Below, piece after piece: positions 26,483 to 29,409 of a DNA stretch of 64,000 bases. Source of the DNA: Pseudomonas moorei (GTDB taxonomy: Bacteria; Pseudomonadota; Gammaproteobacteria; Pseudomonadales; Pseudomonadaceae); contig NZ_VZPP01000001.1 in the NCBI RefSeq assembly GCF_008801475.1, positions 124,001 through 188,000 on the forward strand. The letters are read 5' to 3'. A program made the translations under genes and the position numbers. Every line of letters begins with the position of its first letter. The stretch's first letter is position 1. The notes beneath the pieces were generated by a model. That model saw only the letters and a program-made list of their open reading frames with translations, was not told where the DNA came from and did no database searches.

Positions 26483-27571
26483 TCATGCCATTGCTTGAAT
26501 GCCGCGCTTCACGCGCAGGCGTCCAGCTGCCTGACGCAGCAGCTCTTCAGTACCATCCCAGCCCAGGCAACCGTCGGTGACTGAAACGCCGTATTTCAGC
26601 GACGGGCTCAGTGGCTGGCAGCCTTCGAACAAATGACTTTCGATCATCATGCCAATCAGCGAGCGATCACCTTGCAGGCGTTGTTCAAGTACATCGTTGA
26701 ACACTGCCGGTTGGCGCAGCGGATCTTTTGCACTGTTGGCATGGCTGCAGTCGACCATGATCCGTGCCGGGATCTTCAGCCGGGTCAAATCAGCCTGCAC
26801 CCTGGCGACGCTGGCCCGGTCGTAGTTCGGCCCGCCATGACCGCCGCGCAATACCAGGTGAGTGTCCGCGTTGCCCGGAGTCTGGATGATCGCCGGGTGT
26901 CCCTGGCTATCGACGCCGAAATGACGATGCGGATGCGCTGCCGAGCGCATGGCGTCGCTGGCGACCCCGACTCCGCCGTCGGTGCCGTTCTTGAAACCGA
27001 CCGGCATGCCCAGGCCGCTGGCCATTTCGCGATGGATCTGCGATTCCGTGGTGCGGGCGCCAATGGCCACCCAGCTCAGCAGGTCGTCGAAGTAACCGGC
27101 AGCCATGGGCTGCAGCAACTCGGTGGCAACCGGTAAACCCATGAGGAGCATTTCGCGCATCAGTTGGCGAGACAGGGTCAGGCCGCCGGCCATGTCGTCG
27201 CTGCCGTCCAGGTGCGGATCATAGGCCAGGCCTTTCCAGCCGATGGTGGTCCGGGGTTTTTCGACGTAGGCACGCATCACCAGGAGCATCTCGTCGCTGA
27301 CGTCGGCGGCGAGTCGAGCCAGTTTGCCGGCGTATTCGAGCGCGGACTCAGGATCATGGATCGAGCAGGGGCCGACGATGACCAGCAGACGGGAGTCTTC
27401 ACCGTCGAGGATCGCCCGAACCGCCTGGCGGTGGGCTGCGACTTGCTGGGTCAGGGCGCTGGTGAGGGGCAATTGCTGTTTGAGTTGCAACGAGCTTGGC
27501 AGACGCAGGGTCAGCGCTTCATTGGCAGGACTCAGGGTAGACAGTGGCAGAGTAGAGACGGACGAATTCAT
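26483..27571 (-). CDS. aroF: 3-deoxy-7-phosphoheptulonate synthase, class I (DAHP synthase)
   Basis: First enzyme of the shikimate pathway (362 aa): condenses phosphoenolpyruvate and erythrose 4-phosphate. Class I landmarks are 'LLVIVGPCSIHDPESALEYA', 'MRAYVEKPRTTIGWKGL', 'SWVAIGARTTESQIHRE', 'FKNGTDGGVGVASDAM', 'IMVDCSHANSAK' and 'YGVSVTDGCLGWDGTEELL'. The isozyme type (Tyr, Phe or Trp sensitive) cannot be fixed by reading. The 636-nt upstream region carries an aromatic-codon leader peptide, a terminator and a second Tyr-rich small frame, implying attenuation by aromatic amino acids. AGGA lies 9 nt before the ATG. The letter of the symbol is tentative. Confidence 0.93.
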   Translation of the reverse strand: MNSSVSTLPLSTLSPANEALTLRLPSSLQLKQQLPLTSALTQQVAAHRQAVRAILDGEDSRLLVIVGPCSIHDPESALEYAGKLARLAADVSDEMLLVMRAYVEKPRTTIGWKGLAYDPHLDGSDDMAGGLTLSRQLMREMLLMGLPVATELLQPMAAGYFDDLLSWVAIGARTTESQIHREMASGLGMPVGFKNGTDGGVGVASDAMRSAAHPHRHFGVDSQGHPAIIQTPGNADTHLVLRGGHGGPNYDRASVARVQADLTRLKIPARIMVDCSHANSAKDPLRQPAVFNDVLEQRLQGDRSLIGMMIESHLFEGCQPLSPSLKYGVSVTDGCLGWDGTEELLRQAAGRLRVKRGIQAMA

Positions 27572-27618: not shown

Positions 27619-27771
27619 CTACTGGGGTGTTCGACAGTTGGCCGGATTGGCTACGTGTGTGTGCTTGCCACCTGTGGGTGACCGATCGGAGGCGGCAGGC
27701 TGTCCCGAGCGGAGGGTGGTAAATCGCCAGGCGGTAAAGCTGTCGTAACGGTAATAAGTGGCGTAGTTCAT
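27619..27771 (-). CDS. Small Tyr/aromatic-rich open frame upstream of DAHP synthase (possible second leader peptide)
   Basis: A frame of 50 codons starting MNYATYYRYDSFTAWRF: four Tyr, two Phe and one Trp in the first 17 residues. GAGG lies 9 nt before the ATG. It begins about 60 nt after the attenuator terminator and ends 47 nt before aroF. The rest of the frame (Ser/Pro/Thr/His) looks non-selected. It may be a second leader peptide or a translational relay. I see no second terminator with a U-run after it, so its regulatory role is weaker than that of the first leader. Confidence 0.45.
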   Translation of the reverse strand: MNYATYYRYDSFTAWRFTTLRSGQPAASDRSPTGGKHTHVANPANCRTPQ

Positions 27772-27833
27772 TGCGTTGATCCTCAAGTTGTCGGGTGTCG
27801 CTAAAAGTGTTTGGGGCTGTTTGTTCCGGGCCA

Positions 27834-27872
27834 GAAAAACAAAACCCCCGGTCGGGAGGCCGACCGGGGGTT
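27834..27872 (-). terminator. Attenuator terminator upstream of DAHP synthase
   Basis: A 13-bp perfect GC-rich stem (AACCCCCGGTCGG / CCGACCGGGGGTT) with loop CCTC on the minus strand is followed by TTTTGTTTTT. It lies 48 nt after the stop codon of the aromatic-rich leader peptide and 263 nt before aroF. It is a textbook intrinsic terminator placed for attenuation. Confidence 0.85.
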
Positions 27873-27919
27873 GAGAATTCTCTGGTGGCGACCCGTTTAA
27901 AGTGGGCGCCGTGTGGGTA

Positions 27920-28048
27920 TCAGGCGCGCCAGTGGCTAAACCAATACCCAAAATAAAAGCTGACCGGAGCACACATGTCGTTCACCCGGGCAGCCGCAAC
28001 CGAGCGCAGGGCGCTGACGGTACTAAGCGGCGAGAGGGCGTTGATCAT
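27920..28048 (-). CDS. Aromatic-rich leader peptide of the DAHP synthase attenuator, 42 aa
   Basis: ATG at 28048 has GGAGA 6 nt upstream. Residues 31-40 read FYFGYWFSHW: three Phe, two Tyr, two Trp and one His in ten codons, just before the stop TGA. Codons 34-35 (GGG TAT) can pair with ATACCC directly after the stop, so a ribosome stalled at the Tyr/Trp codons would disrupt that stem. The terminator follows. This is the layout of trp/phe-type attenuators, here for aroF. The frame is too short to be found by length-based gene calling. Confidence 0.78.
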   Translation of the reverse strand: MINALSPLSTVSALRSVAAARVNDMCAPVSFYFGYWFSHWRA

Positions 28049-28207
28049 GGTGTGTCTCCGATGCATTGCCCGAGCTTACTAGAGCCAGGCACGAGGATTC
28101 AATCAGAAATTGCTATCGATGATTCAGGGCATTTTCTATCACTTGAGCGCGCTGGAGGTTGTGACACACTCTGCGCTCTCGAAAACATCACGTCATAAGG
28201 ACGGAAC

Positions 28208-28966
28208 ATGCCGCCTCTGATCATCGCTGCCGCGCAATCGTCATCCATTGCTGGCGACCTTGCGGGCAACATCGCCCGGCATCAACGCTTCATGAAGGTG
28301 GCGGCCGAGCAAGGGGTGCAATTGCTGGTGTTTCCGGAGTTGTCGTTGACCGGTTACGAGCGCGGGCTCGCGGGTGAGTTGGCGCTCGCGCCGGACGCTG
28401 CCGCGTTGCAACCACTGCGTGATTTTGCGCAGGAAGTCGGGGTGACGACGGTGGTCGGGATGCCGATTCGTCTGTCGGACACTGCTCCGGTATTGATCGG
28501 AGCGCTTGTGATGGGCACCGACGGTTCACTGGGGGTTTATAGCAAGCAGCATTTGCACCTGGGAGAAGAGGTCGCATTCGCACCTGGATATGGCGGCGAG
28601 ACGCTGCTTGTCGGTGCCGATACCGTCGCCCTGGCGGTGTGTGCAGACTTCACCCATGCCTCCCATGCCGCTGCGGCGGCAGAGAAGGGTGCCGATGTTT
28701 ACGCTGCCGGGGTGTTGATCACGGAGAAGGGCTATGGCCCGGATACGGGGTTGTTGAAAGGCTATGCGCAAACCCATTCGATGGTCGTGCTGATGGCTAA
28801 CCATGGGGGTGCCACGGGAGGTTGGGAATCCGCAGGGCGCAGCGCAATCTGGTCGGCGAACGGTTCGTTGATTGCTGCCGCACCGGGTACTGGCGACTTG
28901 ATCGTCGTTGCACGTCGCGACGCTGACGGCTGGAACGGACAAGTGGTGTCGGTCATGGAGGCTTGA
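28208..28966 (+). CDS. Carbon-nitrogen hydrolase (nitrilase/omega-amidase superfamily)
   Basis: Hydrolase of 252 aa with the Glu-Lys-Cys triad of the superfamily visible: Glu in 'LLVFPELSLTGYE' (~47), Lys in 'VYSKQHLHLGEE' (~115) and Cys in 'ALAVCADFTHASHA' (~146). Members cleave amide or nitrile C-N bonds of small molecules. AAGGACGGAAC precedes the ATG. Its stop overlaps the start of a GNAT gene by one base, so the two are co-translated. The substrate is unknown. Confidence 0.88.
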   Translation: MPPLIIAAAQSSSIAGDLAGNIARHQRFMKVAAEQGVQLLVFPELSLTGYERGLAGELALAPDAAALQPLRDFAQEVGVTTVVGMPIRLSDTAPVLIGALVMGTDGSLGVYSKQHLHLGEEVAFAPGYGGETLLVGADTVALAVCADFTHASHAAAAAEKGADVYAAGVLITEKGYGPDTGLLKGYAQTHSMVVLMANHGGATGGWESAGRSAIWSANGSLIAAAPGTGDLIVVARRDADGWNGQVVSVMEA

Positions 28967-29409
28967 TGGGCTTCGAATGGTGCGCGGCGACTGCGGGTGA
29001 TATCGATTTCGCCCGCGACCTGACCCGAAGGAACATGCTGCGCTATTACATTTGGCACGACTTGTTATGGCAGGACGAGGCGTTCGATGTCGCCTGGGCG
29101 GGGCGTGAAAACTGGATCATCATGCATGACGACAGTCGAGTGGGTTTTGTCAGCCTGAGTCGGGATGCCAGGGCCCTGTACATTCGCGAACTGCACATTC
29201 TCGAAACGTACCGGGGGCAGGGCGCTGGCTCCTGGGTGATCGATCAGGTATTTGCCATGGCTCGCCAGGAACGACGCCCGGCATTGCGCTTGACGGTCTT
29301 TGAAAGTAATCCGGCGCGAACTTTGTATGAAAGAAAGGGCCTACACGTGGTGGGCACGGACGAATGTTTCCTGAGAATGCAGCGCGATGTCGATGGTTCG
29401 CATCGCTGA
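28966..29409 (+). CDS. GNAT family N-acetyltransferase
   Basis: Acetyltransferase of 147 aa. The start ATG overlaps the preceding TGA by one base, with GGAGG just upstream. The acetyl-CoA binding motif is 'RELHILETYRGQGAGSWVID' (~73-92, Q/R-x-x-G-x-A/G pattern), followed by the C-terminal 'LTVFESNPARTLYERKGLHV' typical of small-molecule GNATs. The N-terminal 'RRNMLRYYIWHDLLWQDE' resembles pseudomonad GNATs of unknown substrate. Its pairing with an amidase suggests a shared small substrate (inference). Confidence 0.85.
   Translation: MGFEWCAATAGDIDFARDLTRRNMLRYYIWHDLLWQDEAFDVAWAGRENWIIMHDDSRVGFVSLSRDARALYIRELHILETYRGQGAGSWVIDQVFAMARQERRPALRLTVFESNPARTLYERKGLHVVGTDECFLRMQRDVDGSHR

Follow-up and report, generated by a model that had tools for sequence, protein, structure and literature searches.

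The aroF transcript in the window, the whole 64-kb stretch of Pseudomonas moorei DNA analysed here, very probably carries two aromatic-sensing leader ORFs in series, the first being a his-like ribosome-mediated transcription attenuator, as judged from sequence comparison and computed folding. On every feature tested, leader 1 appears to work like the ribosome-mediated transcription attenuators and to belong with them. The first-pass annotation proposed an aromatic-codon attenuator of DAHP synthase, and conservation, compensatory changes and the absence of the element together with the gene lend this proposal strong support. It missed leader 2, a second aromatic leader between the terminator and aroF.

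DAHP synthase feeds Phe, Tyr, Trp and the chorismate-derived secondary metabolites, so the switch would matter for P. putida as an engineered aromatics producer. Aromatic attenuation of DAHP synthase genes is known in Corynebacterium and proposed in Acholeplasma, hence leader 1 alone is another case of a known mechanism. New here is the tandem with a pseudoknot-bearing second leader. If the reading is true, the Rfam family P15 is explained as the terminated leader of aroF, pseudomonads use attenuation to regulate how the shikimate pathway is entered, and the conserved tandem-leader design with a pseudoknot is opened to direct test.

Layout of the aroF leader region

On the minus strand, a weak promoter-like pair, leader 1 (28048-27920), an intrinsic terminator (27872-27843), leader 2 (27771-27619) and the aroF-like gene (27571-26483) follow in this order.

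28073..28102, minus strand: promoter-like pair found by eye, -35 TTGAAT (28102-28097), 18-nt spacer, -10 TAAGCT (28078-28073)
27920..28048, minus strand: leader 1 ORF of 42 codons, SD GGAG 28056-28059, ATG 28048-28046, TGA 27922-27920
27929..27958, minus strand: aromatic codons F31-Y-F-G-Y-W-F-S-H-W40 of leader 1, from the translation
27843..27872, minus strand: terminator stem E:F, its apical loop region 27853-27862 being the putative partner of segment D
27619..27771, minus strand: leader 2 ORF of 50 codons, starting MNYATYYRYDSFTAWRF..., SD GAGGA 27780-27784
26483..27571, minus strand: aroF-like DAHP synthase, type I, 362 aa (NCBIfam NF009395, TIGR00034, Pfam PF00793)

The promoter assignment is weak. 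The TTGAA.. and TA...T elements recur 17–18 nt apart in many rows of a 23-row alignment, some rows ending before the site, and a consensus promoter scan at 28073..28102 gave 0 promoters. The 42-codon frame with its own ribosome-binding site was read correctly in the first-pass annotation, as was the 13-bp GC-rich terminator with a U-rich tail (10 of 13 pairs G-C, loop of 4) between leader 1 and aroF. The distance from the tail (27834) to the aroF ATG at 27571 is about 263 nt, as it had given. The leader 2 stop lies 47 nt upstream of aroF in the window.

Leader 1 encodes the peptide MINALSPLSTVSALRSVAAARVNDMCAPVSFYFGYWFSHWRA. It has the densest aromatics, 7 in 10 codons, among the 126 SD-bearing ORFs of 15–75 codons in the 64-kb window, and leader 2 ranks second with 5 in 10. 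The region folds below its own shuffles with z = -7.2. Neither leader peptide has a Pfam or NCBIfam match at E ≤ 1. UGGCGAUUUAGC has 31 one-mismatch matches in its own genome versus 14 for the reversed control.

Upstream lie a divergent nitrilase-like gene (28208-28966, plus strand), whose matches fall short of the curated cut-offs, and an ORF (28963-29409) that was named GNAT-like by eye. The terminator scores as P15 also on the opposite strand (27842-27870, plus, 23.8 bits against a cut-off of 70), as a palindromic stem would, and may act in both directions. The second DAHP synthase of the genome is a 54% identical paralog (L274). No aromatic leader was seen by eye in the 420 nt upstream of it, hence the two isozymes probably differ in their regulation.

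The proposed leader 1 switch

The leader frame and its aromatic codons are kept in relatives, with YWF in 213 of the 214 distinct leader-1 sequences. The last 15 codons hold 3–8 aromatics with a median of 6 in these 214 sequences, at least 4 aromatics near the end being a detection condition. YWF is written with TAT for Tyr in 207 of the 213 and with TTT for Phe in 211, while TAT makes up 19% of the Tyr codons and TTT 6% of the Phe codons in the aroF genes (900-base stretches from 78 loci). The search for leader 1 asked for a TGG-TTT/TTC-type pattern, the aromatics just mentioned and a terminator pattern, and that for leader 2 asked for TGGCG.TT(T/C), an SD and a length of no more than 74 codons. 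Codon identity is thereby partly preset, but the third base of CGN and of TTY was left open.

The enterobacterial hisL attenuator has a leader peptide and segments A–F, of which C:D and E:F make the terminating structure and B:C and D:E the antiterminating one. Leader 1 resembles it in its leader peptide, the six segments, the terminating C:D and E:F and the antiterminating B:C. It differs in its aromatic codons, in its DAHP synthase target and in that D would pair with the apical loop of the terminator instead of its 5′ arm.

27941..27949, minus strand: segment A, GGGUAUUGG, its pairing with B weakly conserved
27915..27930, minus strand: segment B, GGCGCGCC-UGAUACCC, assigned by B:C pair counts
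27904..27910, minus strand: segment C, GGCGCCC, assigned by B:C and C:D pair counts
27887..27894, minus strand: segment D, GGGUCGCC, assigned by C:D and D:terminator-loop pair counts

In the proposed mechanism the segments would be laid out as in the his leader. When charged Phe, Tyr and Trp tRNAs are plentiful, the ribosome would reach the stop and cover A and B, so that C:D pairs, E:F terminates and P15 is released. When it stalls at Tyr35, Trp36, Phe37 or just upstream, it would cover A alone, B:C would pair and D would be freed. The freed D would pair with the apical loop of the terminator as this is being made, and the polymerase would read on. We infer both the starvation response and this direction of control.

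The switch helices were counted on an alignment of 36 diverse leader-1 regions with 500 shuffles per helix, relatedness being uncorrected; two of the 184 distinct regions (L106 and L137) were dropped from the segment analysis. B:C is 85.0% paired with 19 two-sided cells versus 5.6 in shuffles, C:D is 96.5% paired with 10 and the E:F terminator is 90.7% paired with 14, none of them reached by any of the 500 shuffles. D:loop is 86.5% paired (0/500) with 9 two-sided cells (7/500). Sliding by 1–3 columns lowers the pairing to at most 58.5% for D:loop, 56.8% for B:C, 68.8% for C:D and 62.3% for the terminator.

The GGGTAT/ATACCC stem, taken for the switchable structure in the first-pass annotation, has both arms present and intact in the window, ATACCC sharing its A with the TGA stop of leader 1. 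As a conserved switch this A:B stem fares worse, with 63.4% of cells paired (29/500 shuffles) and 8 two-sided cells (50/500), and the same slides lower its pairing only to 58.8%. By these counts B:C, C:D, D:loop and E:F are better supported than A:B as the putative switch helices.

Several controls are unbeaten. When the pairs with a two-sided change are counted, 440, 61, 344 and 173 of 500 shuffles reach D:loop, B:C, C:D and E:F, respectively, and the covariation score of D:loop is 0.108 in place versus 0.113 when slid by -3 columns. The D:loop duplex energy is -12.3 versus -10.6 for swapped partners (0/500; 49 distinct combinations), and the D and loop sequences in relatives include GGGUUGCC/GGCAACCC, GGGCUGCC/GGCAGCCC and GGGACGCC/GGCUUCCC. 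In the window 6 of the 8 D:loop pairs are formed. The predicted terminator and antiterminator structures are mutually exclusive and backed by compensatory changes, with those controls unbeaten.

In the folding computation the RNA ended at the terminator loop, and the ribosome edge was counted from the start of the A-site codon. At an edge of 11–12 nt in the window, a stall at Tyr35, Trp36 or Phe37 gives 0.00 for C:D and 0.75 for D:loop; without a ribosome, or with one at the stop, the values are 0.98–0.99 and 0.01–0.02. A stall at His39 or Trp40 leaves the terminating form with D:loop at 0.02 (12-nt edge). Over 182 distinct sequences at 12 nt, D:loop is 0.81, 0.81 and 0.78 for the Tyr, Trp and Phe stalls and 0.34 at the stop (174 of the 182 evaluated). 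Its mean without ribosome is an intermediate 0.58, the off-state being clear only in the window.

The predicted outcome depends on the assumed edge. At 13 nt D:loop is 0.63 at the stop in the window, a state that is ambiguous because C is masked. At 15 nt it is 0.81, 0.78 and 0.60 for the Tyr, Trp and Phe stalls and 0.70 at the stop in the 182 sequences. The computed window energies are -27.5 kcal/mol for the terminator alone and -14.0 for D:loop alone. Since the terminator alone is the stabler, the antitermination would have to be kinetic.

P15 and the distribution of the leaders

The element is already catalogued as the Pseudomonas 'sRNA P15'.

27845..27962, minus strand: match to Rfam RF00627 'P15', 125.6 bits against a gathering score of 70

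The window stretch is a full-length member of this family, whose consensus holds the A:B-, C:D- and E:F-type hairpins and one small hairpin but lacks B:C and D:loop. The match leaves out the start of leader 1 and all of leader 2. P15 is best seen as the terminated product of the leader 1 attenuator, and it may have a side role in trans.

It is very unlikely that P15 is instead a free-standing trans-acting sRNA gene merely located upstream of aroF. Rfam files it as an RNA 'Gene', and excerpts of two papers count it among sRNAs and report its detection in P. aeruginosa by Livny et al. (PMC2375449, PMC2527527), but a terminated leader would likewise show up as an sRNA. A bare sRNA gene accounts neither for the conserved aromatic ORF with its SD nor for the alternative helices around the terminator, and genomes in which the aroF orthologue was not found yielded no P15 either. 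A metabolite riboswitch, once suggested for P15 on the basis of synteny with a Listeria TPP riboswitch (excerpt of PMC2527527), would suit the strong nucleotide-level constraint. It is highly improbable, as a coding frame with aromatic codons forms the conserved core and the helices fit ribosome-position switching. The region has no Rfam riboswitch or T-box match even at E ≤ 1.

RF00627 is present in 182 of the 199 genomes of the genus Pseudomonas. Among the other 17, 16 have only a DAHP synthase paralog of 53–55% identity and one has no match at 1e-100. These P15-less genomes together with the leaderless 54% paralog imply that the element accompanies one particular DAHP synthase gene. In the order-wide sample RF00627 is found in 27 of 293 genomes, 15 of them above the family cut-off.

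Of the 273 sequences surveyed, 196 show both leaders, 43 leader 1 alone, 30 leader 2 alone and 4 neither, although these sequences are not independent (the 196 rows are 179 distinct pairs and the window locus recurs as L111). The four rows with neither (L219, L226, L238 and L253) were excluded from the later counts. An aromatic leader-1-like frame lies upstream in 25 of the 30 rows with leader 2 only, once the terminator pattern is dropped. An 80-locus subset has 67 loci with both leaders, 9 with leader 2 only and 4 with leader 1 only.

Absence of leader 2 means here absence of its search pattern. The pattern is absent in four Salinicola loci, where leader 1 is present. Among the 34 loci of the family f43, 28 have leader 1 without leader 2 by pattern, 5 have both and 1 has neither. 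In one locus of this family, L243, the place of leader 2 is taken by a short ORF that begins MYRYQ and lacks the UGGCGAUUUA pattern; this locus was scored as leader 1 only. Both leaders were detected in sequences apparently of Pseudomonadaceae and Halomonadaceae. A family look-up placed Salinicola and Chromohalobacter in Halomonadaceae and Halopseudomonas in Pseudomonadaceae; the remaining genera of the survey stand in the families that we take to be theirs.

At E ≤ 0.01 a wider purpose-built RNA model matches 113 of 371 order genomes and 35 of 274 class genomes, and most of its weak matches (about 22–30 bits) are taken to be terminators. Among 11 of its loci, a DAHP synthase stands behind the match in 9 (7 of family f20, 1 of f38 and 1 of f207) and none does in L357 and L358. 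An aromatic leader-1-like ORF is found in L354, L356 and L359 and is also readable in L349. L356, of family f20, has a divergent tandem, in which leader 1 ends in RWFGFGFYFSQTSGLL and the next ORF, ahead of aroF, contains SYRWRFRHG. The same scan found no second leader in the other six f20 loci.

An aromatic leader peptide attenuates the DAHP synthase operon aroR-aroF of Corynebacterium glutamicum (Neshat et al. 2014, as cited in an excerpt of PMC11802643). That system differs from leader 1 in belonging to an actinobacterium and in having Phe-Tyr-Phe in its peptide, and a second leader goes unmentioned in the excerpt. The Acholeplasma uORFC-13-1 motif is a predicted Phe-codon uORF plus terminator upstream of aroF in an unrelated phylum, and the excerpt of PMC8632094 describes neither a second leader nor a pseudoknot for it. 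The same excerpt cites an older attenuation hypothesis for E. coli aroF. We found no description of P15 as an aroF attenuator, or of a second leader, in the openly licensed literature among the matches listed.

The second leader and its pseudoknot

Two features mark the inside of leader 2.

27720..27729, minus strand: near-invariant UGGCGAUUUA, codons W-R-F (UGG-CGA-UUU), invariant in 29 aligned rows
27667..27712, minus strand: H-type pseudoknot, stem 1 27705-27712/27682-27689, stem 2 27691-27696/27667-27672

Up to W-R-F, leader 2 has 4–9 aromatics with a median of 6, and the median after it is 0. The residue shares in this block are 21% Tyr, 13% Arg, 10% Phe and 6% Trp, and the aromatic positions shift between groups. 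The Arg of W-R-F is CGA in 199 and the Phe is UUU in 200 of the 200 distinct leader-2 sequences, as compared with 3.6% CGA and 6.1% UUU in the aroF genes. CGA is a slowly decoded codon. The tail of leader 2 is conserved as RSGQPAASDRS..GG.

The pseudoknot begins 8 nt past the UUU codon. It fits at fixed spacing in 158 of the 200 distinct leader-2 sequences, a count that took all leaders, with 27 too short and 15 unfit; only 7 of 3460 mononucleotide shuffles fit it. The stretch after UGGCGAUUUA is ungapped in 137 distinct 'long' rows, which were chosen by motif. In 29 rows, partly preselected by motif, 95.3% of the cells are paired (stems 94.4% and 96.6%), with 19 two-sided cells versus 5.5 in shuffles (0/500), and 5 of the 14 pairs have two-sided changes (4/500). 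When the partners are slid, pairing never exceeds 49.5%, although 15 two-sided cells are counted at +3.

The pseudoknot is missing in a class including Stutzerimonas, P. citronellolis and P. nicosulfuronedens, which keeps leader 2 and UGGCGAUUUA. The motif is near-invariant even in this pseudoknot-less class.

We infer the whole mode of action of leader 2. Readthrough of the terminator would expose this leader, whose codons, mostly Tyr among the aromatics, end at the near-invariant UGG-CGA-UUU. A ribosome held there would sit at the edge of the H-type pseudoknot, and leader 2 may form a second checkpoint on the translation or elongation of aroF. Control through the pseudoknot is our leading guess for its action, one that we hold tentatively. 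The full reading, possible but short of probable, is that leader 2 is a ribosome-position sensor made of the aromatic codons, the CGA between UGG and UUU and the pseudoknot one ribosome footprint downstream, that it reports stalling to the aroF mRNA without a terminator and that it forms with the P15 attenuator a two-stage gate, transcriptional then post-transcriptional, at the shikimate entry in Pseudomonadaceae and Halomonadaceae.

Leader 2 might only couple translation to aroF by reinitiation or be a small coding gene, without aromatic sensing, which we consider rather unlikely. The stop of leader 2 only 4–7 nt before aroF in some halomonads and the conserved tail would fit such a role, but the distance to aroF varies and the tail conservation is explained by the pseudoknot. 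The concentration of aromatics before W-R-F, at positions that shift between groups, also speaks against it. It is less likely, and in our view improbable, that leader 2 is a second transcriptional attenuator in which the ribosome position controls the loading of Rho. The part after the pseudoknot is rich in C (0.335 versus 0.203 G in 155 distinct sequences with the GCC(A/G)CC motif), as is that after WRFS in 45 other leader 2 sequences (0.364 versus 0.231), leader 1 having 0.311 versus 0.289. However, base composition alone is weak evidence, and a stalled ribosome would expose the C-rich part, the wrong sign for a biosynthetic gene.

A programmed frameshift at UGGCGAUUUA and the pseudoknot, fusing leader 2 to AroF, is extremely improbable and was rejected. 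The pseudoknot does lie 8 nt after UUU and the -1 frame is open into aroF in the window, but no X-XXY-YYZ heptamer is seen by eye at the conserved site. The distance from the leader 2 stop to aroF is 0, 1 and 2 modulo 3 in 58, 40 and 64 of 162 sequences, hence no frame relation to aroF is conserved.

The masking of the aroF SD by nested structure found no support, the predicted exposure staying at 0.39–0.40 whatever the ribosome position in 118 'long' sequences; it is 0.49–0.51 in 34 'short' sequences. RNAfold cannot model the pseudoknot, so this null leaves room for control of translation. In alphaproteobacteria the odc1 uORF motif combines a small uORF with a conserved pseudoknot and has reporter evidence for control of the main ORF (excerpt of PMC8632094). 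Compared by that description only, it differs from leader 2 in fold, gene and peptide.

Leader 1 and leader 2 both carry UGG...UUUAGC. By eye, the end of leader 2 (27619-27640) holds a second recurrent block, CGAACAC with another CGA, at many Pseudomonas loci. This block is followed by UAG and often by a GC-rich hairpin ahead of the aroF SD.
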